32,678 nt of DNA from contig JAIUPL010000043.1 of assembly GCA_020160935.1 (NCBI GenBank), positions 1 to 32,678 of the forward strand, given 5' to 3'. The notes below the pieces were generated by a model. It was not told the origin of the DNA and did not search any database. It was given only the letters and a program-made list of their open reading frames with translations. Positions 7,316-24,007 of the stretch are shown piece by piece. Made by a program: the position numbers and the translations under genes. Position 1 is the first letter of the stretch. Every line of letters starts with the position of its first letter. This stretch comes from Bacteroidota bacterium. Its GTDB lineage: Bacteria > Bacteroidota > Bacteroidia > Chitinophagales > Saprospiraceae.

Positions 7316-7332
7316 ATGGGTTGAACAGGCAG

Positions 7333-7340: not shown

Positions 7341-7366
7341 ACATTTTCCGGCTGAAACGCATATAC

Positions 7367-7401
7367 AAAACGCCCCGGCGGCATTGCTGCTCACCGGGGC
7401 G
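7367..7401 (-). terminator. Intrinsic terminator on the minus strand, after the tRNA-like sequence
   Basis: A perfect 8-bp GC stem CGCCCCGG (7371-7378) / CCGGGGCG (7394-7401) with a 15-base loop. On the minus strand it is followed by TTTTG. It lies 17 bases downstream of the tRNA-like element at 7419-7477 and implies that a short minus-strand RNA ends here. Confidence 0.6.
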
Positions 7402-8253: not shown

Positions 8254-8390
8254 AAGTCCTAAGTCCTGAGTCGTAAGTCCTGAGTCCGTAGAGTACACCT
8301 TTGTACGCTTGGCATACACCGGTAGGTGGCCAAGTGTATCTTTGTGTACTCTACAGACTCAGGACTCAGGACTTACGACTCAGGACTCAA
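8254..8390. repeat. Heptamer-armed hairpin, copy 1 (divergent core)
   Basis: The left arm is AGTCCTA/AGTCCTG/AGTCGTA heptamers (8256-8287) followed by GTAGAGTACACC. The right arm is GTGTACTCTAC followed by the complementary heptamers, ending at 8390, one base before the nagA ATG. The order of variants (GTCGTAAG opposite CTTACGAC) is mirrored with about one heptamer of slippage. The core differs from the other five copies (GCTTGGC...GCCAAG inner stem). Confidence 0.9.
8337..8344 (+). promoter_or_regulatory. Possible -7 box of nagA inside the hairpin core
   Basis: TATCTTTG matches TAnnTTTG and lies 46 bases upstream of the nagA ATG, at the start of the hairpin's right arm. If it is used, the hairpin's right arm becomes the mRNA leader. 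No -33 element is clear. Confidence 0.35.
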
Positions 8391-9515
8391 ATGATTCACT
8401 ATCTCAATGCCCGCATCTACACTGGCCAGGAAATACTGGGAAAGGCCCATGTAAGCGTCGAAAACGGCCACATACAGGCCATTACTACCGGCCCGGCACC
8501 TGCCGAAGGCGAAAAAATTGATTTATCAGGCCGATCGCTGGCGCCTGCTCTCATCGACCTGCAGGTGTATGGAGGGCAGGGCAAATTGTTCAACAACGAG
8601 CCCAATGTAGACACCATCCGTGCAACCCGAGCCGCTACCCTGGCTGGTGGCGCCGCATATTTCCAGATTACGCTGTCGTGTTCGCCGTTGGAAACCATGT
8701 GGAAAGCCATCGATGCCTGCCGGGAATACCTGCAATCGGGCGGACAGGGTTTGTTAGGCCTGCATCTCGAAGGGCCATATTTCAACCCGGAAAAAAGGGG
8801 CGCGCACCCGCTGCAACACATCAGAACGCCCCACCCGGACGAAGTGGCTGAATTGATCGAACGCGGCAAGGGCATCGTGCGCTATATGACCCTTGCACCT
8901 GAACGTGTCGACGATGCCTCGCTCGATCTGCTGCTGCAAAGCGGCATTTGCCTTTCCGCAGGGCATTCCAACGCTACATTTGAAGAGGCTATGCACGGTT
9001 TCCGTAAGGGTATCAGCCGCACTACCCACCTGTTCAATGCCATGAGTCAGATGCAAAGCCGGGCGCCTGGTCTGGTGGGCGCCACTTACCTGCACAAACC
9101 CTGGACGAGTATCATAGCCGATGGTATTCACTGCGATTACAACTGTTTGAATATCAGCAAACAGTTGCTGGGCGAGCGCCTGTTTCTCATTTCCGATGCT
9201 GTGACGGACAGCAAAAGCGGCGATTACCGGTTCCATTTTGCAGGAGACCGATACACCGACGATGCGGGCGTGCTGGCGGGATCGTCGCTGACCATGTGGC
9301 AGGCAGTGAAAAATGCAGTACAGCATGCTGGTATTCCGCTCGACGAGGCCCTGCGCATGGCTTCTACCTATCCGGCGCATGTAGTGGGTGTAGGCGAAAA
9401 ACTGGGCAAAATTGCGCCGGGGTACGAGGCGTCCATGATCGTTTGGAGGGAAAATGAAACGCCCGAAGTTATTAGACTTTATACCCAATTAGTTTCGTAT
9501 GCCGGGAATGGCTAA
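8391..9515 (+). CDS. nagA: N-acetylglucosamine-6-phosphate deacetylase
   Basis: A 374-residue amidohydrolase that removes the acetyl group from GlcNAc-6-phosphate in amino-sugar and cell-wall recycling. The metal ligand Glu127 is in LHLEGPYF, His192 in AGHSNATFEE, His213 in THLFNAMS, and the catalytic Asp269 in ISDAVTDS; the substrate loop ADGIHCDYN is present. The ATG at 8391 directly follows the hairpin. An in-frame extension to 8301 would translate the hairpin and is rejected. Codons from 9473 onward (LYTQLVSYAGNG) lie in the left arm of another inverted repeat, so the extreme C-terminus may be acquired sequence. No nagB lies next to it. Confidence 0.93.
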   Translation: MIHYLNARIYTGQEILGKAHVSVENGHIQAITTGPAPAEGEKIDLSGRSLAPALIDLQVYGGQGKLFNNEPNVDTIRATRAATLAGGAAYFQITLSCSPLETMWKAIDACREYLQSGGQGLLGLHLEGPYFNPEKRGAHPLQHIRTPHPDEVAELIERGKGIVRYMTLAPERVDDASLDLLLQSGICLSAGHSNATFEEAMHGFRKGISRTTHLFNAMSQMQSRAPGLVGATYLHKPWTSIIADGIHCDYNCLNISKQLLGERLFLISDAVTDSKSGDYRFHFAGDRYTDDAGVLAGSSLTMWQAVKNAVQHAGIPLDEALRMASTYPAHVVGVGEKLGKIAPGYEASMIVWRENETPEVIRLYTQLVSYAGNG

Positions 9516-9637
9516 TTTTTCCCAAATCTTCGTTAAATTTTTCGCCGAAAATCTCCCATTTCGACTGCAAAATTTGCCTTGATTTGGAAAAAATTTTCTC
9601 ATTCCAGCATTACGAAACTAATTCGGTATAAAGTCTA
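9473..9637. repeat. Inverted repeat, arms about 56 bp, overlapping the nagA 3' end
   Basis: The left arm (9473-9528) begins TAGACTTTATACC, continues AATTAGTTTCGTA and ends CCCAAATC. The right arm (9581-9637) begins GATTTGG, continues TACGAAACTAATT and ends GGTATAAAGTCTA. Several internal mismatches separate perfect blocks of 7-13 bp. The 52-bp centre is AT-rich. The nagA stop (9513-9515) is inside the left arm, and the right arm ends 29 bp before the Crp/Fnr gene. It is not built from the heptamer unit. It could be a MITE-like remnant or a terminator-type palindrome. Confidence 0.8.
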
Positions 9638-9666
9638 TTTCATAAACCGACGTTATTCCTGGAAAT

Positions 9667-10260
9667 ATGTTCGATCTGATACTTCAAAACGTGGCGCGGC
9701 ACATCCAACTCGATGCGGAGGAGCAACGCTGTTTTACCGATATGCTGCTTCCGACAACCTATAAATCCAGGCAAATGGTGTTGCAGGAAGGGGATGTTTG
9801 TCGGCATACCATTTTTGTGCGCGAAGGCTGCCTGCGTATGTTCAACACCGATAAAAACGGCTATGAACACGTGCTGCAATTTGCGCCGCCCGGCTGGTGG
9901 GTGGCCGATTTATACAGCCTGATCAGTCAACGCCCGGGCACCCTGTACGTGCAGGCGCTGGAAAAAACAGCGGCTTTGTTGCTGCCCAAAACAAGCCAGG
10001 AACAGTTGTATCGCGATGTGCCGAAATTCGAACGCTTTTTTCGCATCCTGGCAGAAAACTCCCTGGTCAACAACCAACAACGCCTGCTCGATCGCCTCAG
10101 CCTGACAGCAGAAGAACGCTACGACCTGTTTTGCAAAAAATATCCTTCCCTGATTCAGTGTGTGCCGCAAAAACAAATTGCTTCCTACATCGGGGTGACG
10201 CCGGAGTTTTTTAGCAAAATGCGGGCACTCAGATCAACTCATGCACATGCGCCTCAATAG
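9667..10260 (+). CDS. Crp/Fnr-family transcriptional regulator
   Basis: A 197-residue regulator with an N-terminal cyclic-nucleotide-binding-type beta-barrel (about residues 15-120; MVLQEGDVCRHTIFVREGCLRMF) and a C-terminal winged helix (about 140-197; VPQKQIASYIGVTPEFFSKMR). No FNR-type cysteine cluster is present, so a [4Fe-4S] oxygen sensor is unlikely. The ligand is unknown. The last 32 bp overlap the convergent bestrophin gene, so the tail ALRSTHAHAPQ is antisense to that gene's C-terminal codons. Confidence 0.9.
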   Translation: MFDLILQNVARHIQLDAEEQRCFTDMLLPTTYKSRQMVLQEGDVCRHTIFVREGCLRMFNTDKNGYEHVLQFAPPGWWVADLYSLISQRPGTLYVQALEKTAALLLPKTSQEQLYRDVPKFERFFRILAENSLVNNQQRLLDRLSLTAEERYDLFCKKYPSLIQCVPQKQIASYIGVTPEFFSKMRALRSTHAHAPQ

Positions 10261-11107
10261 AACGCGTCATACGACTGAGCGGCAGGTCGTTCTCATCGGC
10301 GCCGAATGGCTCTTCAATTTCTTCGGCGATGACTTCCAGGCTGGCCAGTACATAAAAGATAAACCCGACGATCGGCACTACCCAGTAGCCAAGGGTAAAA
10401 ACAAACCCGAAAGGCAGCGTTGCCACATAAATCAGCAGAAATTTTTTGATAAAAACGCTGTACGAATAAGGAATCGGCGTGTTTTTGATGCGTTCGCAGG
10501 CGCCACAGATGTCGGTAAACGACTGGATTTCATTGTTGATAAACAGCATTTGATAACCATCCAGCACCTGTTCATGGCGCATGTCCTGTACATGCCGAAT
10601 CATAAATGCTGCGATCTGGTTGGGCAAATGCTTTTCCAGGTCAATTTTTTTGATGACCGTCTCCGGCAGGTTGTCGAACAATTCAATACGCGTTTCTTCG
10701 CTGCGCAGATGACTTTTGAGGGCATTGGCGTACAAGGGAATGATTTTCCTGAAAAACGCGCGGTGTCGGCTGTCTTCCGGCAAAGCGGCGGCCAGTTTCA
10801 TGGCGAGGTTGCGGCTGTTGTTGACCAACTGGCCCCATAATTTGCGGCCTTCCCACCAGCGTTCGTAGGCCGTATTCGTACGGAAAACGAGCAAAAAAGA
10901 TATAACAAATCCCAACAGCGTGTGCATCACCGTGATGTTGCGCAAGTGGCTGTCGGGGCCGATTTTCCAGTACTCCATTTCCACCCAGGCCACAATGCCG
11001 GCGTAACAGCACACCACAGTAATCCACGGAAACAGGCGCCGCAGCGTATCAGAACGATGAAAACGAAAAGGTGGCGAAAGCCAGGATTTAGGATCGTGGG
11101 CAATCAT
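10229..11107 (-). CDS. Bestrophin-like (UPF0187) anion channel family protein
   Basis: A 292-residue membrane protein of the bestrophin/YneE family, pentameric ion channels of the inner membrane. Hydrophobic segments lie near residues 22-42, 60-78, 215-235 and 238-260. The conserved stretches FRTNTAYERWWEGRKLWG and EEIEEPFGADENDLPL (the C-terminal family hallmark) are present. ATG 11107 is chosen because a -7 box sits at 11135-11142; an upstream TTG at 11137 falls inside that box. The 3' end overlaps the convergent Crp/Fnr gene by 32 bp. Confidence 0.9.
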   Translation of the reverse strand: MIAHDPKSWLSPPFRFHRSDTLRRLFPWITVVCCYAGIVAWVEMEYWKIGPDSHLRNITVMHTLLGFVISFLLVFRTNTAYERWWEGRKLWGQLVNNSRNLAMKLAAALPEDSRHRAFFRKIIPLYANALKSHLRSEETRIELFDNLPETVIKKIDLEKHLPNQIAAFMIRHVQDMRHEQVLDGYQMLFINNEIQSFTDICGACERIKNTPIPYSYSVFIKKFLLIYVATLPFGFVFTLGYWVVPIVGFIFYVLASLEVIAEEIEEPFGADENDLPLSRMTRSIEAHVHELI

Positions 11108-11134
11108 GGATGGAGTGTTTTTTGCTGTAGCGTG

Positions 11135-11142
11135 CAAAAGTA
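11135..11142 (-). promoter_or_regulatory. -7 promoter box of the bestrophin gene
   Basis: The minus-strand reading is TACTTTTG, an exact TAnnTTTG match, 27 bases upstream of the ATG at 11107. Confidence 0.55.
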
Positions 11143-11178
11143 CGACCTGCCGCTATTTGCTGCGTGCTTCCCTTACGC

Positions 11179-11186
11179 TACTTTTG
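11179..11186 (+). promoter_or_regulatory. -7 promoter box of the second Crp/Fnr gene
   Basis: TACTTTTG, followed after four bases by the ATG at 11191. Transcription would start at or very near the start codon, which implies a leaderless mRNA. Confidence 0.55.
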
Positions 11187-11190
11187 TAGG

Positions 11191-11787
11191 ATGCTGCCAG
11201 GTTCTTCTTCCGATTGGGCGCACCTGCAAACAACGGTGCGCCAGTTTGCGCCCCTTACCGAGACGGAATGGGCGGACTTTGCCGACATCTGGCAACCTTT
11301 CGAGGCGCCGCGCAAGGCTGTGCTGACGGCCGAAGGCGACGTGGAAAAGTACATTTATTTCGTGCTGGATGGCGTGCAAAGGGCTTATGCTGTGGGAGAG
11401 GACGGCCGCGAGTCGACACTCGTTTTCACTTACCCGTACTCCTTTTCGGGCGTAGCCGATTCGCTGTTGTTGCAACAACCCTCGAGGTATTTTTTTGAAA
11501 CGCTCACGCCCAGCCGTTTTTTGCGCAGCACTTTTCGCCAACTCGATGCCCTGATGCTGCGCCAACACGGCATCGAACGCATGATTCGCCTGGCAGTGAG
11601 CCATACGCTGGCAGGTGTGCTGGTTCGTCAAATAGAATTGCAATCGCTGAGTGCAGAACAACGTTTCCGAAAATTGCTCGCCCGCAGTCCGCACTTGCTC
11701 CAGTTGGTACCACACAAATACCTGGCGAATTACCTGGGCATGGACCCTACGAATTTCAGCAAGTTGATGGGTACGGTGCGCATTTGA
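11191..11787 (+). CDS. Crp/Fnr-family transcriptional regulator
   Basis: A 198-residue regulator with a cNMP-barrel domain (about residues 20-120; KAVLTAEGDVEKYIYFVLDGVQRAY) and a C-terminal winged helix (LLQLVPHKYLANYLGMDPTNFSKLM). It has the same architecture as the regulator at 9667, but the sequences are clearly different, so they are paralogues rather than a recent duplication. The ATG at 11191 is supported by the box at 11179-11186; a GTG at 11164 lies upstream of the promoter. It diverges from the bestrophin gene and could regulate it, which is inference only. Confidence 0.88.
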   Translation: MLPGSSSDWAHLQTTVRQFAPLTETEWADFADIWQPFEAPRKAVLTAEGDVEKYIYFVLDGVQRAYAVGEDGRESTLVFTYPYSFSGVADSLLLQQPSRYFFETLTPSRFLRSTFRQLDALMLRQHGIERMIRLAVSHTLAGVLVRQIELQSLSAEQRFRKLLARSPHLLQLVPHKYLANYLGMDPTNFSKLMGTVRI

Positions 11788-11791
11788 AGAG

Positions 11792-11813
11792 AATCTTGGT
11801 TTTTACCAAGATT
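11792..11813. promoter_or_regulatory. Perfect 9-bp dyad, operator or terminator, between the Crp/Fnr and DinB genes
   Basis: AATCTTGGT, four Ts, then ACCAAGATT. It begins five bases after the stop of the Crp/Fnr gene, so it could be a weak terminator, but it has no T-tract after the stem. It ends 19 bases before a CACTTTTG box (11832-11839) of the next gene, so it covers the expected -33 region, as an operator would. Confidence 0.45.
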
Positions 11814-11858
11814 TACCTCTTTTGCTGCCCGCACTTTTGTGCCATAAATCAATAAAAA

Positions 11859-12440
11859 ATGGAACTACTCGATCAACTGCACGAACGCACCGAACACATC
11901 CTGCAAAAAGCCGTCAGCGAATGGCAAATGCTCCCTTCCGAACAATGGGCCTTTCAACCCGCGCCGAACGCCTGGAGCGCGGCTCAATGCCTCGAACACC
12001 TGAATATTTACGGGCGACATTATTTGCCGGCTATTGAAAAAGCGATTCAGACAGGTAAGTCACAGGGCAGCACTCCGGCCAGGGTATTCCGCTCCGGCTG
12101 GCTGGGCGCTTATTTTACCCGGCTGATGCAACCCCGCCCGGACGGTTCTTTGCCCGGAAAAATGAATGCCCCGAAAAATGCCATACCCGCCCCACAACCC
12201 GACGCGCGGGCCATGCTGGCTGAATTTATCGATCAACAGGAAACCATGCTCCGCCTGCTTCGCCTGGCCGAAGCCGTCAACCTGAATACCTTGCGCGTGC
12301 CCATTTCGCTGACGCCCTGGATACGGCTGAAACTCGGCGATACCTTCGGATTTGTGATTGCACACATGGAACGCCACGTGCTGCAGGCCGAACGGGCCAT
12401 ACAACAAGCGTCTGCCGCCCAACAGCATGCCAGGATTTGA
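11859..12440 (+). CDS. DinB-superfamily protein
   Basis: A 193-residue four-helix-bundle protein of the DinB/YfiT fold, often metal-dependent thiol or small-molecule transferases. The three expected metal-ligand histidines are visible: His47 (SAAQCLEHLNIY) and His169/His173 (IAHMERHVLQAE). Length is slightly above the family's usual 150-180. A CACTTTTG box at 11832-11839 and the dyad at 11792-11813 lie upstream. The actual reaction is unknown; DinB-like genes are often stress-induced, but no such site is recognised here. The following permease gene starts 47 bp downstream. Confidence 0.82.
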   Translation: MELLDQLHERTEHILQKAVSEWQMLPSEQWAFQPAPNAWSAAQCLEHLNIYGRHYLPAIEKAIQTGKSQGSTPARVFRSGWLGAYFTRLMQPRPDGSLPGKMNAPKNAIPAPQPDARAMLAEFIDQQETMLRLLRLAEAVNLNTLRVPISLTPWIRLKLGDTFGFVIAHMERHVLQAERAIQQASAAQQHARI

Positions 12441-12463
12441 CGCGGCGAGTCCGCAGCATTGCA

Positions 12464-12471
12464 TACTTTTG
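12464..12471 (+). promoter_or_regulatory. -7 promoter box of the LolC/E-like gene
   Basis: TACTTTTG, an exact TAnnTTTG match, 16 bases upstream of the proposed TTG start at 12488. It argues against a start at 12437. Confidence 0.5.
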
Positions 12472-12487
12472 CAGGAAAAAAACGCTC

Positions 12488-13705
12488 TTGAATTTTTCAT
12501 TTTATATAGCCCGCCGCTATCTCTTTGCCCGGCGCAGCGCCAATGCTATCAATATTATCACAGGCATTTCTGTGCTCGGGGTAGCCATTGGCACCGCTGC
12601 ACTGATTCTGGTACTGTCGGTTTTTAACGGTTTTGAGGATTTGCTTTCGGGCTTGTTCGGCCATTTCAACCCGCAGGTGAAAGTGACGCCTGCCAAGGGT
12701 AAGACTTTTGAAGCCGACAGCCTGCTGCTTACCAAAGTGCGCGCTTTGCCCGGTGTGCTGTATGCCAGTGAAACGTTGGAGGAAATCGCTTTTTTTGAAT
12801 ACGAAGGTTCCCAGAATTTTGGAGTATTGAAGGGTGTCGACAGCCTTTTTGCGCGTGTCAACAACATCGACTCCACTATTCAGGAAGGGGAATACAAATT
12901 GAAAATATCGGAACGCAATTGCGTCGTTGCCGGCGCCGGGATGCGCAACAAACTCGGCATAGATGTGCGCAATCCGCTGGCCTTGCTCACGATTTACATG
13001 CCCGAACAGCAAAGCAATTTGATGGATCAACCTTTCAAAACCCGCAATGTGTATCCGGTAGGCACCTTTGCCATTCAGCAGGATTTTGACAATCAGTATG
13101 TGTTGACCAACCTCGACTTCATGCGCGAAATACTGGAATCCTCTCCGACGACGGTTTCTGCCATCGAAATCAGGGGCAGGCCGGGAATCAGACTTTCGGA
13201 ACTCAAAAGCCAGGTGGCGCAGGTGTTTGGCAACGACTATTCCATCCGCGACGAATACGAGCAAAACGAGGCATTTTTCAAGGTCATGCGCCTGGAAAAA
13301 TGGATGGGTTTTGCCATCACCAGCCTGATGCTGATATTGATGGCGTTCAATACTGTTGGCGCTTTGTGGATGATCGTACTCGACAAACAAAAGGACATCA
13401 GCATTCTGAAAAGCATGGGCGCCACGGATCGTTTGATTCACCGCATTTTTCTGCTGGAAGGCCTCCTGCTTACCCTTCTGGGTATGGGTATCGGCATTGT
13501 GCTGGCTTGCGGGCTCTATCTGATTCAAAAGACCTATGGCATCATTTCCATTCCACAAGGGTTTCTGGTGGAAAGTTATCCGATTTCCATGCGCGCCAGC
13601 GATTTTATCCCTGTCGTGCTCACCGTTATTGGCATTGGCTTGCTCGCCTCGCTCGCGCCGGCGCGGAGGGCAGTGCAGGTGCCAACTTTTTTGAGGGAAG
13701 AGTGA
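12488..13705 (+). CDS. ABC transporter permease, LolC/LolE (FtsX/MacB) family
   Basis: A 405-residue permease with a TM helix near residues 22-47, a long periplasmic domain (about 48-270) and three C-terminal helices (about 275-390). This is the type VII ABC (MacB/LolCE) layout, which extracts lipoproteins from the inner membrane. The opening NFSFYIARRYLFARRSANAINIITGISVLGVAIG is typical of Bacteroidota LolE homologues. The coupling stretch DISILKSMGATDRLI is present. The start is taken as TTG 12488, because the family motif begins there and a -7 box lies at 12464; no ATG is available in this frame near it. The ATPase partner is not in the window. Confidence 0.87.
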   Translation: MNFSFYIARRYLFARRSANAINIITGISVLGVAIGTAALILVLSVFNGFEDLLSGLFGHFNPQVKVTPAKGKTFEADSLLLTKVRALPGVLYASETLEEIAFFEYEGSQNFGVLKGVDSLFARVNNIDSTIQEGEYKLKISERNCVVAGAGMRNKLGIDVRNPLALLTIYMPEQQSNLMDQPFKTRNVYPVGTFAIQQDFDNQYVLTNLDFMREILESSPTTVSAIEIRGRPGIRLSELKSQVAQVFGNDYSIRDEYEQNEAFFKVMRLEKWMGFAITSLMLILMAFNTVGALWMIVLDKQKDISILKSMGATDRLIHRIFLLEGLLLTLLGMGIGIVLACGLYLIQKTYGIISIPQGFLVESYPISMRASDFIPVVLTVIGIGLLASLAPARRAVQVPTFLREE

Positions 13706-13707
13706 GG

Positions 13708-13872
13708 ATAGTTGACAGTCAACAGTCTACAGTCATCAGTCGACAGTCCGTAGGATGCGCTTGGGGCTTTGTTAGTTAGGCCCTCAACATTGGCTAAAGG
13801 GCGTTGAGCGGAACGGTACACTCTACGAACTCTCACTCTCTCACTCTCTCACTCTCTCACTTCTCTCACCTC
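13708..13872. repeat. Degenerate heptamer and octamer tandem repeats between the LolC/E-like gene and pyrG
   Basis: 13711-13748 carries five heptamers of the ACAGTCA/ACAGTCT type. 13830-13872 carries octamers TCTCACTC. Between them are CTCAACATTGG...GCGTTGAG (a short inverted pair) and GGTACACTCTACG, which resembles the core edge of the heptamer hairpins. The two arms are not complementary to each other, so this may be a decayed hairpin locus. Confidence 0.6.
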
Positions 13873-13875
13873 TTT

Positions 13876-15516
<1,641 letters not shown>

Positions 15517-15600
15517 TTACTTCAGCAACCCTTCCTGCTCTGCCGTTTTTTCTTTCGATCTTTGTGGGGAACAAGCCTTCATCATTTCTGTTGTAAGGAC

Positions 15601-16314: not shown

Positions 16315-16318
16315 CCGC

Positions 16319-16376
16319 CCTCAACTCTTCAACCCTCCACCCTTCAACCCTCATCAACTTTTATCAACCACTCAAC
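16319..16376. repeat. Short degenerate CTTCAACCC/CATCAAC tandem repeat
   Basis: The 63-bp gap between lipB and the next gene consists of imperfect units such as CTCAACTCTTCAACCCTCCACCC. It is related to the CTCAACCC units of the 6134-6525 palindrome, but here no complementary arm is present. Confidence 0.6.
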
Positions 16377-16377
16377 C

Positions 16378-16788
16378 ATGATCAAAGACATTCCCATCCA
16401 AAAAGTTGAAGACCTTGCCATTGCGATCGTTCCGCGCCTGCCACACGAAGAGGACTGGGAAGATTTTTGGGATGCCTACCTGATCAACCTGAAAATAGAA
16501 CCTATCCGTTCGGTGCTGGTCAATTCCACCGGTTATGGTGAAATTGATGGCGAAAAGCGCCGTACCAGTACCCTCCGCTATTTCTGGGACAGCATCGGAC
16601 CGCTGGATATCGTGAAGATAGAGCCTGTGCAAAAACAGGTGTTCGAACTAGCCAGTGAGTATTGGGTCAGTTTTTCCTATAACGACTACCTGTACGACAA
16701 AAAATATGTGTTTGTTGCGGGCAGCCTCGATGAGATCAATTTTACGGAAATCCCGTTTCTCGATCGGAAAGGGGTCATGATCAGATAA
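16378..16788 (+). CDS. Hypothetical protein (136 residues)
   Basis: A small acidic soluble protein that I do not recognise. It begins MIKDIPIQKVEDLAIAIVPR and has a WEDFWDAYLINL stretch, a TLRYFWDSI stretch and a C-terminal YLYDKKYVFVAGSLDE strand pattern, which suggest an alpha/beta fold. There is no signal peptide or TM helix. Coding is supported by a continuous frame with no competing gene on the other strand. It starts 63 bp after lipB and lies 35 bp before a small membrane protein gene, so the three may be cotranscribed. Confidence 0.7.
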   Translation: MIKDIPIQKVEDLAIAIVPRLPHEEDWEDFWDAYLINLKIEPIRSVLVNSTGYGEIDGEKRRTSTLRYFWDSIGPLDIVKIEPVQKQVFELASEYWVSFSYNDYLYDKKYVFVAGSLDEINFTEIPFLDRKGVMIR

Positions 16789-16823
16789 ACCATTTTCCTT
16801 TTTCACCGCTCATTTCTTCCGCC

Positions 16824-17273
16824 ATGCGCATCCGCGATTTGTTCGACAAATACATTTTTTTTCCGCCGTTTCAGGCGGCGCTCATTTTTGTTGCAGGGCT
16901 GCTGCTTATGCTCATCGGCTGGCTGCTGGCACTGAGCGGTATGAAATCTGTAGACCAATTGTTTGCCTGGTCGGTGGCCTCCGCGTTTGCCTTGTTGTTT
17001 GCCATTTTCAACAGCCTCATGAGTCTGCGCGCCACCCATGCCGGAAAATACTGGGGCGCGTCGGTGTACAGTTTTTTGGGCCTCGTGCTGTGTAACAGCA
17101 CTGCCGCCTGGCTGTTCAGCGGTATCCCGCTCCGTGATGCCGGCACCTACCGCTGGATTTTTATCGTCGTTACCTTCGGCTTCCTGGTGTTTTTGTCGAT
17201 GGTGAATTTTATGAAAAAAATCGTGCAGTTTGCGGAAAGGGAGGAGTGGAATCAGCCAAGGAAAAAGTCCTGA
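16824..17273 (+). CDS. Small integral membrane protein, unknown function
   Basis: A 149-residue protein with four clear hydrophobic helices (about residues 15-38, 46-66, 80-102 and 108-128) and a charged C-terminal tail. I recognise no family. The last two residues and the stop (AAG TCC TGA, Lys-Ser-stop) are supplied by the first heptamer of the following hairpin, so the original C-terminus may have been different. It lies 35 bp after the hypothetical gene at 16378. Confidence 0.72.
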   Translation: MRIRDLFDKYIFFPPFQAALIFVAGLLLMLIGWLLALSGMKSVDQLFAWSVASAFALLFAIFNSLMSLRATHAGKYWGASVYSFLGLVLCNSTAAWLFSGIPLRDAGTYRWIFIVVTFGFLVFLSMVNFMKKIVQFAEREEWNQPRKKS

Positions 17274-17392
17274 GTCGTGAGTCCTGAGTCCTAAGTCTGT
17301 AGAGTACACCATGTACCCTCGGTATTTGTTATAAATAATGCTAAGGGTACATGGTGTACTCTACAGACTTAGGACTCAGGACTCAGGACTTA
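17267..17392. repeat. Heptamer-armed hairpin, copy 2
   Basis: The left arm of GTCCTGA-type heptamers runs from 17267 to about 17299, then GTAGAGTACACCATGTACCC. The loop holds CTCGGTATTTGTTATAAATAATGCTAAG. The right arm is GGGTACATGGTGTACTCTAC plus complementary heptamers. The variant TCTGTAG (other copies TCCGTAG) is matched by CTACAGA on the right, so the change is compensated. It overlaps the end of the membrane protein gene. Confidence 0.92.
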
Positions 17393-17412
17393 ACTAATCA
17401 AAACTACGCTTT

Positions 17413-17766
17413 ATGAAAATCTCTCAATTTGAAGACATTGTTGCCTGGCAAAAGGCACAAGACCTTGCTGTGGCTATTCATCAGCAATTTGGTAAATCAG
17501 GTGATTCGGGTTTCAAAAACCAGATTTGCAGAGCCGCCGTTTCCATATCGAATAACATCGCGGAAGGTTTTGACCGGCAAACGGATAAACAATTTTCCAG
17601 TTTTCTTTTCATTGCCCTGGGTTCAAATTCAGAGGTTCAGTCAATGCTTCATCTGGCCGTGAGGCTAAACTGGATTTCAGAATCTGTACACCATGAACTA
17701 ATTCAACAAACCAAAGAAATCAGTCGAATTATCTTTGGGTTCATTCAGTATCTAAATAAGTCCTGA
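17413..17766 (+). CDS. Four-helix bundle protein (S23/23S rRNA intervening-sequence family)
   Basis: A 117-residue protein with the family opening FEDIVAWQKAQDLAVAIH, then FKNQICRAAVSISNNIAEGF, a middle helix with FLFIALGSNSEVQSML and a C-terminal helix. Homologues were first found in 23S rRNA intervening sequences, and related folds (Avd) assist reverse transcription in diversity-generating retroelements; a function for free-standing copies is not known. It lies alone between two heptamer hairpins (copies 2 and 3). Its last two codons and stop (AAG TCC TGA) come from the first heptamer of copy 3. Confidence 0.9.
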   Translation: MKISQFEDIVAWQKAQDLAVAIHQQFGKSGDSGFKNQICRAAVSISNNIAEGFDRQTDKQFSSFLFIALGSNSEVQSMLHLAVRLNWISESVHHELIQQTKEISRIIFGFIQYLNKS

Positions 17767-17937
17767 GTCCTAAGTCCTGAGTCCTAAGTCCGTAGAGTAC
17801 ACATTGTACCCTTAGCATCTTTAATAACAAATCCCGAGGGTATATGGTGTACTCTACGGACTTAGGACTCAGGACTTAGGACTCAGGACTTAGGACTCAG
17901 GACTCAGGACTCGGAACTCACGACTTAGGACTCAGGA
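17759..17937. repeat. Heptamer-armed hairpin, copy 3 (core inverted relative to copy 2, extended right arm)
   Basis: The left arm has about four to five heptamers, then GTAGAGTACACATTGTACCC. The loop reads TTAGCATCTTTAATAACAAATCCCGAGGG, the inverse orientation of the copy 2 loop. The right arm is long (about 17851-17937, roughly eleven heptamers) and abuts the gldN stop codon. The unequal arm lengths show that heptamer number changes readily. Confidence 0.92.
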
Positions 17938-18801
17938 CTACCAATTCCAAAGGTCATGTTCCCGATTAAACATCTCCGCCTCAATCTGCTCGCCATGCAT
18001 CACCATATCGGCGCCGGAAAACATATCCTGCAAACGTAAATCGTTGACATTGTTTTCTTTAGTGACGCAGGAGGCGAAATGCCGCATTTCAAAAATATCT
18101 TCCCAGGTGGTAGTAGCCGCATAATTGCCGCCATGTGTAACGGCTTTGCAGTGTGCCAGCAGTGGGCGAGCGGAAGGGTAGTGTACCCAGAAAAGCGGCA
18201 TTTCAAATTTGAAATCGCCGTTTTCGTCGGTCACATCCATGAGCGGCGCGATACCGAGAATGCGCACCTGCAAGGTGGCTGTTTTGGAATCGAAATACCA
18301 GGCTTCTTTGATGCGGAAACGCTTCACACTCTCCCAGTCGCGCTCGTTTTGCACCACCACCATTTCGTCGATACCCGTGTCGATGTTGACACGGAAAATA
18401 GTGTCCGTGCGGAACAGCATGGCACGGACGGATTCTGCGCTGAGGGGTTTGGAAAAATGATCGTCCTGTGTGCTGTACACCTGTAAATCGCCGGACATAG
18501 CCGCTTCAGACAGGATTTTAAACAATGGCGACTCGGGAGCGACGAACGGCTGGTTCATTTTTTCGCGCACATCGATGATGCGCCAAAGCCGTTTTTCCCA
18601 TAAAATATCGGCTTCCCGAACGGGCTGGTGCGCCAGTACCTGATGATCCTGGACCACTTCGCGTTCGGTAAAGTCGTCGAGCGGCGTGGCAGAAGAGAGG
18701 GGTGACGGATCTGTTTGAGCGAAAGAAAGTTGGGTGGCGAGCAAGGCTCCGCCAAGGCAGGCCCATACACGGACCGCCTTCATGGACAACAGTTTTGTCA
18801 T
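17938..18801 (-). CDS. gldN: GldN/PorN-like gliding motility and type IX secretion protein
   Basis: A 287-residue exported protein resembling GldN, a periplasmic partner of GldK/PorK in the T9SS ring. A signal peptide is visible (MKAVRVWACLGGALLATQLSFAQ from the second ATG, 18783; the first ATG is 18801). The conserved part begins at DILWEKRLWRIIDVREKMNQPF and includes FRIKEAWYFDSKTATLQVRILGIAPL and a C-terminal TWEDIFEMRHFASCVTKENN. gldK, gldL and gldM, which normally precede it, are absent, so this is a separate or additional copy. The stop is directly at the hairpin copy 3 edge. Confidence 0.85.
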   Translation of the reverse strand: MTKLLSMKAVRVWACLGGALLATQLSFAQTDPSPLSSATPLDDFTEREVVQDHQVLAHQPVREADILWEKRLWRIIDVREKMNQPFVAPESPLFKILSEAAMSGDLQVYSTQDDHFSKPLSAESVRAMLFRTDTIFRVNIDTGIDEMVVVQNERDWESVKRFRIKEAWYFDSKTATLQVRILGIAPLMDVTDENGDFKFEMPLFWVHYPSARPLLAHCKAVTHGGNYAATTTWEDIFEMRHFASCVTKENNVNDLRLQDMFSGADMVMHGEQIEAEMFNREHDLWNW

Positions 18802-19107
18802 GATGGAAAAAAGTGTTTAGTAACGTAATAAAATGCCTGAAGTGAAACAGCCGGACAGGAAGAACACCCTGTTGCCGAGACGTGCGTCACTGCAAACCAT
18901 ACCCTGATAACCCATCCCCTGGTGCATACAGTGGAATAGGTAATTTAATTATTACCCGAATGTTAATGTAAACGAAAACCGGTAGGGATAAAATAATGTG
19001 TGGCACAGCAGGAGTTATCCGATACATGTGCCACACGAAATTGAACACTTTTCGAAAACGGGCAGGAAGGGGATAGATTTTAAAAGTTAAAAATTTTAAC
19101 ACACGGG
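18802..19107. other. Gene-free stretch with a 10-bp dyad
   Basis: No coding frame is convincing here. It probably holds the gldN promoter, but no clean -7 box was found. A 10-bp inverted repeat GTGTGGCACA (18998-19007) / TGTGCCACAC (19027-19036) with a 19-base loop is the only distinct element; it could be an operator or terminator. Confidence 0.5.
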
Positions 19108-19221
19108 CAACACAGATGCAACACGGATTACACAGATTAAATACGGATTGCACGGATTATCTACTGCTGTAATCCGTTCAATCCGTATTTAATCTGTGTA
19201 ATCCGTGTTGCATCCGTGTTG
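19108..19221. repeat. Near-perfect inverted repeat, 52-bp arms built from ACACGGATT-like units
   Basis: The left arm (19108-19159) and right arm (19170-19221) are complementary except at two positions, with a 10-bp loop TCTACTGCTG. Each arm is a run of roughly 10-bp units (CAACACGGAT, TACACAGATT, AATACGGATT). The right arm contains the stop codon and about the last 14 codons of the GmhB-like gene. Confidence 0.9.
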
Positions 19222-19744
19222 CAAACTCCGCCAGCGAATCAAACCGATAATCCACCGCCATATCTTTCAGCAATTCGGCTTCTTCAACTTTCCCATGAAT
19301 AAGCACCGTTGTCATGCCCAGCCGCAATCCGAGTTCCATATCGGAAATGGAATCACCCACCATCCACGATTGTGTAAAGTCAATGTCGGGAAACGCTACC
19401 TTTGCGCGCAAGGCCATCCCTGTGGCGGGTTTGCGGCAATCGCAGCCTTCATCGCGGCGATGTGGACAGTGGTAAATGGCATCGATGCGGCCGCCGGCAG
19501 CATGAATCAGGTCGAGCATTTTCTGGTGCACGGCCTCCAGATCGGCTTCGGTCATAAAGCCTCTGCCGATACCGGCCTGGTTGGTGACGACGATGATATG
19601 GCCGAATGCGCCGGAAAGTTGCTGCATCGAAGTCTCAAGCCCGGGCACAGGTATCCATTCATCCGGCGTTTTTACGTAGTCGTCGGGCGTGCGTACATTC
19701 AGTACACCGTCCCGGTCTAAAAACAATGTTGGCAAATTTTTCAT
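19178..19744 (-). CDS. gmhB: HAD-IIIA phosphatase, D-glycero-beta-D-manno-heptose-1,7-bisphosphate 7-phosphatase-like
   Basis: A 188-residue cytosolic HAD hydrolase. The nucleophile motif LFLDRDGVLN has Asp10/Asp12, motif II is VTNQAGIGRG, and motif IV is WMVGDSISDM with Asp131. The zinc loop typical of GmhB is present: Cys93, His95, Cys101 and Cys103 (CPHRRDEGCDC). GmhB acts in ADP-heptose synthesis for lipopolysaccharide; the close relative histidinol-phosphatase is less likely because HisB next door already has that domain. The C-terminal 14 residues (ATRMQHGLHRLNTD) are read from the inverted repeat and look non-native. Confidence 0.82.
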   Translation of the reverse strand: MKNLPTLFLDRDGVLNVRTPDDYVKTPDEWIPVPGLETSMQQLSGAFGHIIVVTNQAGIGRGFMTEADLEAVHQKMLDLIHAAGGRIDAIYHCPHRRDEGCDCRKPATGMALRAKVAFPDIDFTQSWMVGDSISDMELGLRLGMTTVLIHGKVEEAELLKDMAVDYRFDSLAEFATRMQHGLHRLNTD

Positions 19745-19763
19745 TTACTGAATTTTTAACTCA

Positions 19764-19830
19764 TCTCACTCTCTCACTCTCTCACCCTCTCACTCTCTCA
19801 CTCTCTCACCCTCTCACTCTCTCACTCTCT
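19764..19830. repeat. Octamer tandem repeat CTCTCACT in the hisB leader
   Basis: About eight copies of CTCTCACT/CTCTCACC fill the gap between the divergent GmhB-like and hisB genes and end six bases before the hisB ATG. The same octamer occurs at 13830-13872. No complementary arm is present. It leaves little room for a hisB promoter or ribosome binding site other than the repeat. Confidence 0.85.
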
Positions 19831-19835
19831 GTTTT

Positions 19836-21005
19836 ATGCGTCGTATCCTTTTCCTCGACCGCGACGGTTGCATCATCGCAGAACCGCAGCCCGATCAGCA
19901 GGTAGATTCGCTGGAAAAACTCGAATTCATCCCGGGTGTCATTTATGCATTGGCGCGACTGGTGCGCGAGCAGGATTTCGACCTCGTGATGGTGACCAAT
20001 CAGGATGGCCTCGGTACCGATTCTTTCCCCGAACCCACGTTCTGGCCGGCGCACAACAAGATGATTAAAACCCTGGAAGGGGAAGGGATTGTGTTTAAAA
20101 CCATACACATCGACCGTTCGTTCAAACATGAAAACCTGCCGACACGCAAGCCCGGTACGGCCATGTTGAATGCCTATATGAACAGCCATGTCGATATGAA
20201 AAACTCTTTCGTCATCGGCGACCGGCTGACCGATATGCAATTGGCCCAAAACCTCGGGGCCAAAGGTATTCTCTTGCGCAACGATTCCGGCATCGAAGCC
20301 GAAAATACACCTGGCACAACGCTCCAACACCACAGTGGTGTGGAATACAATCCGGAAGGCCAGGCTGTACCCATCGAACTCGTGGCCGATTCCTGGGAAC
20401 AAATTTACCAGTACCTCCGGCTGCCGCAACGACGCATCCAACACCGGCGCAGCACCCGCGAAACGGATATTTCCATCGATCTCAACCTCGACGGAAAAGG
20501 GAAAAGCGACATTCATACCGGACTGGGCTTTTTCGACCACATGCTCGACCAACTGGCGCGGCATGGCGGCCTCGATCTGACGCTCGAAGCCAAAGGCGAC
20601 CTGCACATCGACGAACACCATACCATCGAAGACACGGCCCTGGCACTGGGTGAGGCATTTGCCCTGGCGCTGGGCGACAAACGCGGCATCGAACGCTACG
20701 GATTTTGCCTGCCTATGGACGACGTGCTGGCACAAGTAGCCCTCGATTTCGGCGGCCGCCCCTGGTTGGTGTGGGATGCCACTTTCACCCGCGAAAAAAT
20801 TGGCGACATGCCGACCGAGATGTTTTACCATTTTTTTAAGTCCTTTACCGACGCTTCCCGCTGCAACCTGAACATCCGCGTGGAAGGCCAGAACGAACAC
20901 CACAAGATCGAAGCCATTTTCAAGGCATTTGCCAAAGCCGTCAAAATAGCCGTGCGCCGCGATGCCACAAACATGGAATTACCCTCTACCAAAGGCGTGC
21001 TGTAA
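19836..21005 (+). CDS. hisB: Bifunctional histidinol-phosphatase / imidazoleglycerol-phosphate dehydratase
   Basis: A 389-residue fusion for steps 6 and 8 of histidine synthesis. The N-terminal HAD phosphatase (about 1-165) has FLDRDGCI (Asp8/Asp10), [10 protein letters not shown] and [11 protein letters not shown]. The C-terminal dehydratase (about 195-389) has [16 protein letters not shown], the metal-binding [14 protein letters not shown] (His261/His262) and the final [10 protein letters not shown]. The length matches the enterobacterial-type fusion. It heads hisB-hisH-hisA-hisF, with 23 bp to hisH. The leader is the CTCTCACT repeat. Confidence 0.96.
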
Positions 21006-21028
21006 AACAACCTCCAACACCACCTCGC

Positions 21029-21613
21029 ATGATAGCAGTGCTCAAATACAACGCCGGCAATGTACAATCTGTGCTGTTCGCCCTCGAACGCCTGGGCGTG
21101 GAGGCCGTATGGACCGACGACCCCGCGACCCTGCAAGCCGCCGATAAAGTGATTTTTCCGGGACAAGGTGAAGCGTCCTCGGCCATGCGCTACCTGCGCG
21201 AACGGGGGCTCGACGAAGTTCTTCGCTCTTTGCAGCAGCCGGTACTTGGAATTTGTATCGGATTGCAGTTGTTTTGCCGGCACTCTGAGGAAAACGACAC
21301 GCGCTGCCTGGGCATTTTCGATGTGGAAGTGCGCAAATTCAGCGGCGTCGGAGGACTAAAAGTGCCACAAATGGGCTGGAACCAGTTGATTGCACCGCAA
21401 GGGCCTTTGTTCGTGGGGGTTCCGGAAGGAAGTTTTGTCTATTTTGTACACAGTTATTTTGCCGAGCAACATCCGGCGGCCACTGCCCTGACGGATTATG
21501 GCGAACGGTTCAGCGCCGCCCTGCAACACGACAACTTTCACGCCGTGCAATTTCACCCTGAAAAATCAGGCGCAGTCGGTCAACGAATCTTACAGAATTT
21601 TCTAAATATTTGA
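21029..21613 (+). CDS. hisH: Imidazole glycerol phosphate synthase, glutamine amidotransferase subunit
   Basis: A 194-residue class I glutaminase that delivers ammonia to HisF. It starts MIAVLKYNAGNVQSV, has PGQGEASSAM, the nucleophile Cys76 in GICIGLQLF, MGWNQL, VYFVHSYF, and His176/Glu178 in QFHPEKSG. All catalytic residues are intact and the length is normal. It lies 23 bp after hisB and 15 bp before hisA in one operon. Confidence 0.96.
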   Translation: MIAVLKYNAGNVQSVLFALERLGVEAVWTDDPATLQAADKVIFPGQGEASSAMRYLRERGLDEVLRSLQQPVLGICIGLQLFCRHSEENDTRCLGIFDVEVRKFSGVGGLKVPQMGWNQLIAPQGPLFVGVPEGSFVYFVHSYFAEQHPAATALTDYGERFSAALQHDNFHAVQFHPEKSGAVGQRILQNFLNI

Positions 21614-21628
21614 TTTTCAACAACTCAC

Positions 21629-22351
21629 ATGGAAATAATCCCTTCCTTCGATCTTCTGGATGGCAAATTAGTAAGGCTACGACAGGGCGATTTTGAGCAA
21701 AAAACGGAATACCCTGCCGATCCGCTCGAACTGGCGCTTCGCCTCGAAGCCGCCGGTATTCGCCGCCTGCATATGGTTGATCTCGACGGCGCGCGCTCGG
21801 GCCGACCTGCCAATCTGCATATCCTGGCCTCCGTCGCTTCCCGCACCCGACTGAAAATTGATTACGGCGGCGGCCTGCGCTCTATTCCCGCCCTCAAGCA
21901 GGTGTGGGATGCCGGCGCTATGCTGTTTTCGGTAGGAAGCGTGGCAGTTCTTGCGCAGGACGAATTCAGCGCCTGGGTAGAAAAATTCGGCCCTGAAAAG
22001 TTTCTGATTGGCGCCGATGTGCGCGATCGCCTGATTGCGGTACACGGCTGGAAAGAAACGACAGAAACCTCCTTGTTCGATTTTATCCGGAAAATGGAAT
22101 CGCTTGGGGTGCACCAGATTTCCGTGACCGATATTGCCCGCGACGGCGAACTATCCGGTCCGGCAGTCGACCTGTACCGTGAAGTGCTCGACACATTCCC
22201 GGATATTCAACTTGTGGCCAGCGGCGGCGTCAGCGATGTGTCCGATCTGGAAGAACTCACTGCGATCGGTTGTGCTGGCGCTATCGTCGGCAAGGCCTTT
22301 TTTGAAGGGAAAATACCGATTGATTATTTCAGGATTCATTCTAAAACGTAA
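21629..22351 (+). CDS. hisA: Phosphoribosylformimino-5-aminoimidazole carboxamide ribotide isomerase
   Basis: A 240-residue TIM barrel for the Amadori rearrangement of ProFAR to PRFAR. It starts MEIIPSFDLLDGKLVRLRQGDF with the catalytic Asp8, has DYGGGLRS, the second acid in SVTDIARDGELSGP, and the phosphate-binding ASGGVSD and GAIVGKAFFEG. It diverges mildly from the common IPAIDxxDGKCVRLxQGD text, but all key residues are kept. A heptamer hairpin begins three bases after its stop and separates it from hisF. Confidence 0.95.
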   Translation: MEIIPSFDLLDGKLVRLRQGDFEQKTEYPADPLELALRLEAAGIRRLHMVDLDGARSGRPANLHILASVASRTRLKIDYGGGLRSIPALKQVWDAGAMLFSVGSVAVLAQDEFSAWVEKFGPEKFLIGADVRDRLIAVHGWKETTETSLFDFIRKMESLGVHQISVTDIARDGELSGPAVDLYREVLDTFPDIQLVASGGVSDVSDLEELTAIGCAGAIVGKAFFEGKIPIDYFRIHSKT

Positions 22352-22353
22352 TA

Positions 22354-22488
22354 AAGTCCTGAGTCGTAAGTCCTGAGTCCTGAGTCCGTAGAGTAGACCA
22401 TGTACCTTCGGTATTTGTTGTTAAAGACACTAAGGGTATATGGTCTACTCTACGGACTCAGGACTCAGGACTTACGACTCAGGACTCT
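22354..22488. repeat. Heptamer-armed hairpin, copy 4, between hisA and hisF
   Basis: The arms mirror each other exactly in variant order: GTCCTGA, GTCGTAA, GTCCTGA, GTCCTGA, GTCCGTAGAGTAGACC on the left, and the exact reverse complement on the right. GAGTAGACC / GGTCTACTC replaces the GAGTACACC / GGTGTACTC of copies 2 and 6, again on both arms. The loop reads TTCGGTATTTGTTGTTAAAGACACTAAGGG. It fills the whole 143-bp gap inside the his operon. Confidence 0.93.
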
Positions 22489-22494
22489 AAAGCC

Positions 22495-23262
22495 ATGTTA
22501 TCCAAACGCATCATCCCCTGCCTCGACATCAAAGACGGCCAGACCGTCAAGGGCATACAGTTTGAAAACCTGCGCTCGGCCGGCGACCCGGTCGAACTGG
22601 CGCGGGCATATGCCGCACAGGGCGCCGACGAACTGGTGTTTCTGGATATTACCGCTACGCACGAAGGCAGAACCACTTTTGTGGAACTGGTGCGGCGCAT
22701 TGCGCATGTGCTCGATATTCCTTTTACGGTAGGCGGCGGCATCAGTTCGGTGGAGCAGGTGCGGGCCCTGTTGCAAGCGGGAGCGGATAAAGTGAGCATC
22801 AATTCAGCCGCTGTGCGCCGCCCTGAACTCATCAACGAACTGGCGCAAACATTTGGAAGTCAATGCGTTGTAGTGGCGATCGATGCCCGCCTGCACGACG
22901 ATGGCGTGTGGTATGTGTACCTCAATGGTGGGCGTATCCCTACAGAACTCCGTGCACTGGATTGGGCCAAAGAAGTCGCCCTCCGTGGTGCAGGAGAAAT
23001 CCTGCTCACTTCCATGAACCACGACGGTATGAAAACAGGTTTTGCGCTGGATATTACCAGAGAAATCTCCACTTCCATACCAATTCCTGTCATTGCTTCC
23101 GGTGGCGCTGGCGCAAAAGAACATTTCAAGGAAGTGTTCGACGCCGGAAAAGCCGACGCCGCCCTGGCCGCCAGTATTTTTCACTTCGGTGAAATTCCTG
23201 TACCTGAGTTGAAGGGGTATTTGAAGGAAGAGGGAGTAGTTGTTAGAAGTCCTGAGTCGTAA
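22495..23262 (+). CDS. hisF: Imidazole glycerol phosphate synthase, cyclase subunit
   Basis: A 255-residue TIM barrel that closes the imidazole ring from PRFAR and HisH-derived ammonia. It starts [20 protein letters not shown] with the catalytic Asp11, has the second acid at about Asp130 in [23 protein letters not shown], and the phosphate-binding ASGGAGA. ATG 22495 follows hairpin copy 4. The final residues RSPES and the TAA stop are translated from heptamers of copy 5, so the normal C-terminus was probably altered. The core enzyme is intact. Confidence 0.96.
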
Positions 23263-23393
23263 GTCCTGAGTCCTAAGTCCGTAGAGTAGACCATGTACCC
23301 TTAGTATCTTTAACAACAAATACCGAAGGTAAATGGTCTACTCTACGGACTTAGGACTCAGGACTTAGGACTCAGGACTTAGGACTCAGGACT
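23248..23393. repeat. Heptamer-armed hairpin, copy 5 (core inverted relative to copy 4)
   Basis: The left arm starts inside hisF (AGTCCTGAGTCGTAAGTCC). The core has GAGTAGACCATGTACCC, then TTAGTATCTTTAACAACAAATACCGAAGG, which is the reverse complement of the copy 4 loop with few changes. The right arm has about seven heptamers and ends at the stop codon of the convergent GNAT gene. It separates two convergent genes, where a bidirectional terminator would be useful. Confidence 0.93.
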
Positions 23394-23834
23394 TTATACG
23401 ATGTATTTATATCTCGGCCCAATCAGCATAAACCCTTCCCGCTCATAAAAGCGCAGCGTGCGCTCGTACTCATCGCCGGGTGTAGTCACTTCCAGCCGCA
23501 CCCAGCCGCGTTCTTCGGCCAGGTTTTTGGCAGCATCCAGCAGGATTTTTCCGACACCTGCCGAGCGATATTCGGGTACAACATACAATTCATTGACCAC
23601 ACCAATATAGCCGCCCGCATACAGAGACAGGGTTTCTGCCAGCGTAATGACACCTACGGCCTCCTCGTCGTCCATTGCCAGCAAAGTGGAATGGCGGTCG
23701 TCGGTATCGATGTCGTTAAAAATAGCCGAAATGGCGTCGTAATCGGGCGAATGGCCCACTTCTTCAAACAGGGCAGCCAACATGGACGCTACTTCGTGGT
23801 TGTGCGTTTCGTCGGCAACGATGAGGTGTAACAT
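23394..23834 (-). CDS. GNAT-family N-acetyltransferase
   Basis: A 146-residue single GNAT domain. Motif A (VNELYVVPEYRSAGVGKILLDAAKNLA, about residues 80-106) has the acetyl-CoA pyrophosphate loop R-S-A-G-V-G-K, a good fit to Q/RxxGxG/A. The C-terminal motif B is ERTLRFYEREGFMLIGPRY. It transfers acetyl from acetyl-CoA to an unknown amine. A -7 box lies at 23854-23861. The gene lies between hairpin copies 5 and 6, with its stop at the edge of copy 5. Confidence 0.9.
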   Translation of the reverse strand: MLHLIVADETHNHEVASMLAALFEEVGHSPDYDAISAIFNDIDTDDRHSTLLAMDDEEAVGVITLAETLSLYAGGYIGVVNELYVVPEYRSAGVGKILLDAAKNLAEERGWVRLEVTTPGDEYERTLRFYEREGFMLIGPRYKYIV

Positions 23835-23853
23835 GGATAGGTGGATTTTGGGA

Positions 23854-23861
23854 CAAAAGTA
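23854..23861 (-). promoter_or_regulatory. -7 promoter box of the GNAT gene
   Basis: The minus-strand reading is TACTTTTG, an exact TAnnTTTG match, 19 bases upstream of the ATG at 23834. It lies nine bases outside hairpin copy 6. Confidence 0.5.
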
Positions 23862-23870
23862 ATAAGTAAA

Positions 23871-24007
23871 GTCCTGAGTCCTATGTCCTGAGTCCTAAGT
23901 CCGTAGAGTACACCATGTACGTTCGGTATTTATTGTTAAAGATACTAAGGGTACATGGTGTACTCTACGGACTTAGGACTCAGGACATAGGACTCAGGAC
24001 TCAAGAC
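23871..24007. repeat. Heptamer-armed hairpin, copy 6
   Basis: The left arm GTCCTGA, GTCCTAT, GTCCTGA, GTCCTAA, GTCCGTAG is mirrored perfectly on the right, including the rare GTCCTAT unit answered by ATAGGAC. The core GAGTACACCATGTAC...GTACATGGTGTACTC and loop TTCGGTATTTATTGTTAAAGATACTAAGG have the orientation of copies 2 and 4. Its right end overlaps the stop of the T9SS cargo gene. Confidence 0.93.

Follow-up and report, generated by a model that had tools for sequence, protein, structure and literature searches.

A high-copy family of giant hairpins abutting stop codons in a Saprospiraceae genome

Results

Six inverted repeats in contig JAIUPL010000043.1 of a Saprospiraceae genome (Bacteroidota bacterium, GenBank assembly GCA_020160935.1; the whole contig of 32,678 nt is referred to as the window) are members of a family of giant hairpins, present in many copies and positioned directly at stop codons. 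Within one Saprospiraceae lineage, this heptamer-armed family is one among several interchangeable types of hairpin with repeat arms. Comparison with the related metagenome-assembled genome (MAG) MAG-362 (JAEUUT) revealed that a hairpin is kept at most compared sites despite turnover of its sequence, which suggests that some hairpin is needed there. The sequence evidence further leans towards the identity of the two arms within a copy being established mainly through DNA-level copying or correction.

Structure of the six window copies

The preliminary description of the window had proposed six heptamer-armed hairpins between positions 8254 and 24007, and all six were recovered there (Table 1). 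The window contains 48 occurrences of the heptamer GTCCTRA, compared to 5.1 expected from shuffled sequences and a maximum of 10 in any shuffle. Each element is a near-perfect hairpin of ~130 bp with a stem of ~60 bp and a loop of ~14 nt; copies of the family from our genome fold at about -90 to -147 kcal/mol. In order, the hairpin consists of 3 to 4 heptamers (AGTCCTG, AGTCCTA, AGTCGTA), the segment GTC[CT]GTAGAGT, and a short stem, for most copies of the window either ACACC or AGACC, with an inner stem that varies by copy. The cores of copies 3 and 5 have the opposite orientation to those of copies 2, 4, and 6; the starts of copies 4 to 6 are 893 and 622 bp apart; and copy 4, taken with its extended ends, starts at the hisA stop codon and ends 5 nt upstream of the hisF start codon. 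The elements had been called intergenic, but many of them overlap a stop codon and are thus not strictly intergenic. GTCCTGA and GTCCTAA/GTCGTAA contain TGA or TAA, so that tandem 7-nt units offer a stop in all frames, and the heptamers provide the stop codon of the preceding gene, for example in copies 2 and 5.

The matched arm variants proposed for particular copies were confirmed for GTCCTAT/ATAGGAC in copy 6 and for GAGTAGACC/GGTCTACTC in copies 4 and 5. The pair TCTGTAG/CTACAGA is matched in copy 2 as claimed; however, CTACAGA is also found on the right arm of copy 1, where it stands unmatched opposite GTCCGTAG on the left arm, and across the genome the variant is not rare, with U-A in 19 and C-G in 15 of 38 copies at the corresponding pair position.

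Table 1. Giant hairpins of the window, with their positions and genomic context
Feature	Position	Context and remarks
Copy 1	8254-8388	Between ECF (extracytoplasmic function) sigma factor gene 7679-8248 and nagA-like gene from 8391
Copy 2	17265-17390	First heptamer supplies the stop codon of open reading frame (ORF) 16824-17273; orthologous MAG-362 site has a hairpin
Copy 3	17758-17938	Right heptamer array extended; lies between ORF 17413-17766 (four-helix bundle) and gldN 17938-18801 (minus), which is convergent
Copy 4	22352-22489	Between hisA 21629-22351 and hisF 22495-23262
Copy 5	23247-23392	At hisF stop; convergent GNAT gene 23394-23834 (minus); orientation of the core opposite to that in copies 4 and 6
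Copy 6	23869-24007	3' of gene 24001-26439 (minus), which has a weak type IX secretion system (T9SS)-tail match; unique GTCCTAT/ATAGGAC
Chimeric or decayed relative	13716-13877	Left arm ACAGTC heptamers, GTCCGTAG core end, right arm CTCTCACT octamers; convergent stops
Giant hairpin of another kind	2121-2308	TGAATGA arms
Giant composite hairpin	6129-6523	Outer GTTATCAG and inner GTTGAGGG arms; ends at stop of gene 6524-7384 (minus)
Giant hairpin of another kind	19107-19222	ACACGGATT words; related hairpin at orthologous MAG-362 site

Size and distribution of the family

The core pattern GTAGAGT-N35..62-ACTCTAC matched 188 times in the genome, with no match for the reversed control. Among 298 genomes of the taxonomic family, an even draw from a larger group, these 188 matches compare to 0 to 8 in the others (reversed control up to 5). 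Relatives with further matches are MAG-362 (139), JALHMA (46), JAKQJD (17), and JADLCC (17); these four are among the matches listed in the core-motif scan, and records near our genome may have been missed. The same core was found with different arm types. A further arm type on this core, with CCCGCAGA/CGCAGATTT words, occurs in genomes G298 and G000 under the wider pattern GTAGAGT-N118..134-ACTCTAC, which gave 17 matches in our genome and 26 in MAG-362, among them also other kinds of hairpins and the four insert-bearing ones described below. At three JALHMA loci (L144:1099-1306, L146:180-480, and L118:5170-5460), a family hairpin has one of its arms amplified in 51-nt units.

An assembly artefact, which the preliminary description had raised as grounds for doubt, was rejected, as hairpins occupy the same places in the separate assembly MAG-362 and, between hisA and hisF, also in genome G306. 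A plasmid or phage origin was likewise rejected, since copy 4 had no match in the plasmid or the phage collection.

Placement at gene ends

Of 68 hairpins detected in our genome, 34 lie between convergent, 29 between tandem, and 4 between divergent genes, with 1 at an edge, compared to 49, 122, and 51 background pairs (p = 1e-5 for convergent versus divergent enrichment), with genes called by a simple script trained on codon usage that missed at least one ORF. The distance to a stop codon is ≤25 nt in 84/97 cases, with a median of 1 nt, and the distance on the start side is ≤34 nt in 12/37. In the relatives' loci, the 70 detected hairpins comprised 32 convergent, 28 tandem, 3 divergent, and 7 at an edge. 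The hairpins thus stand at the 3' ends of ORFs, and some of them leave almost no gap between co-oriented genes. A TGAATGA hairpin (L081:3150-3249) between rpsL and rpsG ends 3 nt upstream of the next start codon.

Retention of sites and turnover of sequence

We identified 27 family sites of our genome for which a relative's locus, picked for carrying the core motif somewhere within ≤8 kb, contains both flanks (23 in MAG-362 and 4 in other MAGs), and in every case the relative has a hairpin; three of these (L056, L058, and L067) were judged via their cores and one (L054/L092) via folding energy only. At the 23 MAG-362 sites, the flanks are on average 88% identical (range 79 to 97). Nevertheless, orthologous cores are no more alike (0.631, 20 pairs) than distant ones within the genome (0.631 ± 0.067, 1994 pairs), whereas neighbours within 10 kb reach 0.755 (22 pairs). 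The window illustrates this: copies 2 to 6 are similar to one another, and so are their MAG-362 counterparts at 22354, 23247, and 23869 (0.82 to 0.91), which do not resemble the orthologues. Near-identical cores also occur at distant loci (L060/L068, 0.977).

Further sites gave a similar picture. All 13 additional sites of our genome that were compared hold a giant hairpin in MAG-362, and in the reverse direction 12/14 sites are occupied, with 9/14 repeating the 13, 3 being among the 27, and 2 being new, so that 13 of 15 distinct further sites are occupied in both genomes. Eight of the 13 shared hairpins are of other types, and 5 of these 8 differ wholly in sequence (L051:4125, L059:1255, L059:3341, L076:1182, and L081:3150). 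The flanks align well at these replaced hairpins (L081/L117, L076/L099, two sites in L059/L096, and L051/L102) and also at an octamer-armed family site with a replaced hairpin (L041/L137). One such replacement is L081/L117, the rpsL-rpsG site, where an unrelated repeat-armed hairpin has been substituted between flanks that are 97-98% identical.

The hisA-hisF junction was followed across additional genomes. MAG-362 and our genome carry hairpins with different cores, and the hairpin of G306 has other heptamers; in five relatives, the gap measures 0, 1, 4, 55, and 55 nt and contains no hairpin. In four more genomes that matched hisF, no hisA was found next to it, and two of these have stems upstream of hisF with scores of 15.5 and 27.5.

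Agreement between the arms

The preliminary description had stated that the arms of a copy match each other better than they match other copies. In a set of 38 further copies, all of the same length, 92.7% of cells are paired, and 158 cells with two-sided changes were counted, compared to 69.2 ± 7.7 after shuffling; none of 500 shuffles reached the observed count. An identical inner octamer on both arms was present in 21/38 copies (shuffle mean 1.7, maximum 7), and the left arms of the 38 copies show 25 distinct octamers. From inside to outside, the heptamer rungs agree in 32, 28, 20, and 22 of 38 copies; the inner three are matched above chance, and the outermost is not (22/38 compared to 19.7, p ~0.14). 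Independent variation of the arms, proposed beforehand as the observation that would speak against paired arms, was therefore encountered only at the outermost rung.

Selection on RNA pairing is expected to favour G-U intermediates. However, arm mismatches on the mRNA strand in tandem contexts did not show an excess of G-U over A-C in our genome (31 compared to 47), MAG-362 (36 compared to 29), and other MAGs (13 compared to 16), or in the pooled count (80 G-U compared to 92 A-C, p = 0.40). In convergent contexts, the corresponding numbers are 45 compared to 44 in our genome and 49 compared to 47 in MAG-362; all of these mismatch counts take in the loosely paired apex. Furthermore, matched changes of several bases were seen on both arms, as for hairpins maintained by template switching, a process described as both maker and keeper of hairpin stems (PMC8794818).

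The choice between selection for pairing and correction from a template within the hairpin, as originally posed, was the right question. Because G-U is not above A-C, and because neighbouring cores are more alike than distant or orthologous ones, the balance tips to correction at the DNA level.

Other giant hairpins

In our genome, giant hairpins built from other repeat words are frequent. In seven random 20-kb stretches plus the window, gaps of 20 to 800 nt contained a giant hairpin in 7/13 convergent, 11/56 tandem, and 3/22 divergent cases (convergent versus divergent, p = 0.02). When gaps with family members were excluded, the counts were 5/9, 21/68, and 5/44 in our genome and 10/17, 18/91, and 5/41 in MAG-362, in the same order. 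Five same-genus genomes, each represented by one sample of 5.7-20 kb, yielded 1 giant hairpin altogether. Counted per sample, G114 had 6, G299 and G301 had 3 each, and G122 had 1, and no giant hairpin was found in the samples of G085, G042, G262, and G001.

CRISPR-related observations

Four family hairpins of MAG-362 (L099:163-303, L102:5013-5154, L143:3056-3197, and L201 near 2573) carry a direct duplication of 37-38 nt at the apex (two exact, two with one mismatch) around a unique insert of 36-37 nt. This is the geometry of a single spacer integration into clustered regularly interspaced short palindromic repeats (CRISPR), and a CRISPR array in our genome has 37-nt repeats with 35-38-nt spacers. 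In MAG-362, cas1 was not found, and viral_contigs contained no match to exact stretches of 24-26 nt from the centres of the four inserts. The window itself contains a CRISPR array at ~26854-29800 with at least 41 repeats of 36 nt, adjoined by genes for Cas1 (30126-31166) and a reverse transcriptase (31181-32233), both on the minus strand. Immediately preceding this array, at 26674-26861, there is a nested inverted repeat together with three palindromes of the AGAGACAAGGCATGCCTTGTCTC type.

Discussion

We favour, with a probability of roughly 0.4, a reading in which the arms are homogenised by DNA-level copying and the sites are kept for a role at 3' ends that does not depend on sequence, a role that we infer. 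The arms would stay identical mainly through fold-back template switching inside a hairpin, together with conversion between hairpins, rather than through selection acting on individual base pairs of the RNA. A long stretch of double-stranded RNA following the stop codon might nevertheless shield the upstream mRNA at its 3' end, and a hairpin between genes could split multi-gene transcripts into separate stable pieces. One conceivable route is a substrate for RNase III that is recognised regardless of sequence, so that any long hairpin would suffice. A sequence-blind role is favoured because the stems lack a U-tract and because co-transcription of hisA-hisF and of rpsL-rpsG, which is usual for both pairs, would require transcription to continue through the hairpins between them. 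More tentatively, and on balance doubtful, the hairpins may be exchangeable cassettes, with a long hairpin of any sequence kept at the stop codon and replaced at the exact site by an unrelated one through some process that acts between ribosomal-protein genes too.

Several points weigh against this reading. The lack of a G-U excess might also reflect hairpins that have no function as RNA. The 27 sites overstate occupancy, since the relatives' loci had been picked for the core motif. Two of the 15 further sites have a hairpin in MAG-362 only (L129/L045 is empty in our genome and L120/L071 has a short stem), and 5 of the 13 shared hairpins are of the heptamer type and had been missed by the detector. 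The set of 68 hairpins includes a non-member (window 26680-26743) and lacks copy 1, and copy 2 was counted as convergent instead of tandem because the script missed ORF 17413-17766. Giant hairpins in 11/56 tandem gaps imply that most tandem junctions are hairpin-free. Finally, inverted loops between orthologues are a hallmark of template switching, and loop orientation among 20 orthologous cores leans inverted in 2, direct in 1, and is undecided in 17.

The main rival, and a strong one, is neutral or selfish spread, to which we give a somewhat lower standing. Under this explanation, the palindromes spread by conversion or transposition, their arms stay alike via template switching, and they pile up at stop codons only since promoters and coding sequences do not tolerate hairpins. 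Conversion alone would account for arm identity with no function involved, as has been argued for nematomorph mitochondrial palindromes (PMC6649704), and spread is consistent with the near-identical cores of L060/L068, with the combination of one core with different arm types, and with the two sites occupied only in MAG-362. However, 13/15 sites are occupied in both species, the hairpins end at the stop codon instead of anywhere in a permissive gap, and swaps exchange one hairpin for another rather than removing it.

Classical compensatory evolution, in which each base pair of an RNA stem is selected and G-U serves as an intermediate, would explain the strong two-sided changes (158 compared to 69.2 cells), but we consider it improbable, as G-U is not commoner than A-C on the transcribed strand and whole hairpins are replaced. 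It is more improbable still that the hairpins are bidirectional intrinsic terminators. Their location at gene ends and between convergent genes would fit, and inverted repeats just behind stop codons in Escherichia coli are described as mostly terminator parts (PMC6060812). Yet at least 5 T within the 8 nt past the stem were found at only 6/68 convergent and 3/28 tandem exits (4/28 on the tandem entry side), and this absence of a U-tract led us to reject a canonical terminator. Moreover, while convergent copies fit the ends of transcription units, the hairpins 5 and 3 nt before the starts of hisF and rpsG do not if the genes are co-transcribed. A role at the DNA level, whether through extrusion of a cruciform or as an intergenic site for protein binding, would agree with the equal G-U and A-C mismatches, as expected for strand-symmetric DNA, but is very unlikely given that replaced hairpins share no sequence for a protein to read.

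The least probable explanation, by a narrow margin, is a set of repetitive extragenic palindromic (REP) elements or REPINs mobilised by a REP-associated tyrosine transposase (RAYT, Y1_Tnp). REP elements are described as intergenic palindromes of 20-40 bp with 5-13-bp stems, tagged with GTAG or CGTC on one side of the hairpin, that lie between convergent or tandem genes and near stop codons, for which they often supply the TAG (PMC3733652). The hairpins analysed here share this placement and have GTAG in the core, but their stems measure ~60 bp, and in a 134-column alignment GTAG sits 33 nt within the stem instead of at its end. In addition, neither of the two PF01797 genes of the genome has a paired core within ~1.5 kb; one of these loci (L169) has a single ACGCTAC half motif, and a RAYT/REP origin was rejected on these grounds.

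The hairpins had been said to belong to no named family, which holds as far as tested: Rfam gave 0 matches at gathering score in the window, so that membership in an Rfam RNA family was rejected, and the surveyed literature on hairpins and repeats contained no description of giant hairpins that abut stop codons and are replaced between orthologous sites. In the P6b hairpin of the Nostoc tRNA-Leu intron, degenerate heptamers pair in the stem, at one intron site and not at many gene ends. Close kin in kind exist nonetheless, namely REP elements and the short tandemly repeated repetitive (STRR) hairpins of cyanobacteria. By their published description, STRR sequences are likewise tandem heptanucleotides in intergenic DNA, and the hoxW example folds at -10.2 kcal/mol (PMC2670836), in contrast to about -90 to -147 kcal/mol for our copies, which in addition abut stop codons, have a non-repeat core in common, and undergo replacement between species. 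Repeats of the heptamer TAACTGA reported from Beggiatoaceae, cyanobacteria, and five Bacteroidetes are intergenic and offer stops in three frames (PMC4679880), and the right arm of our GTTATCAG hairpin at L059:3341-3533 includes this very word; however, those repeats are described as direct and mostly upstream of start codons, whereas our words are in inverted arms behind stop codons. Nematomorph palindromes resemble our hairpins in having identical arms while the sequence differs between species, but are reported from inside mitochondrial coding genes (PMC6649704), not from behind bacterial stop codons. Similarly, template-switch hairpins, whose stems are created and repaired in one event, are described from RNA genes (PMC8794818), whereas ours are giant and located at gene ends.

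With dozens of sites in two genomes, these hairpins provide a natural test bed for the question of what keeps long hairpins perfect, separating selection on RNA pairing from template correction of DNA. If sites are kept while their letters are freely exchanged, covariation, the usual proof of RNA function, would here stem largely from mutation, and sequence homology would fail to reveal conserved elements. Should the hairpins indeed be exchangeable cassettes, they would represent an element of genome organisation defined by structure without sequence and, as such, beyond the reach of homology searches.

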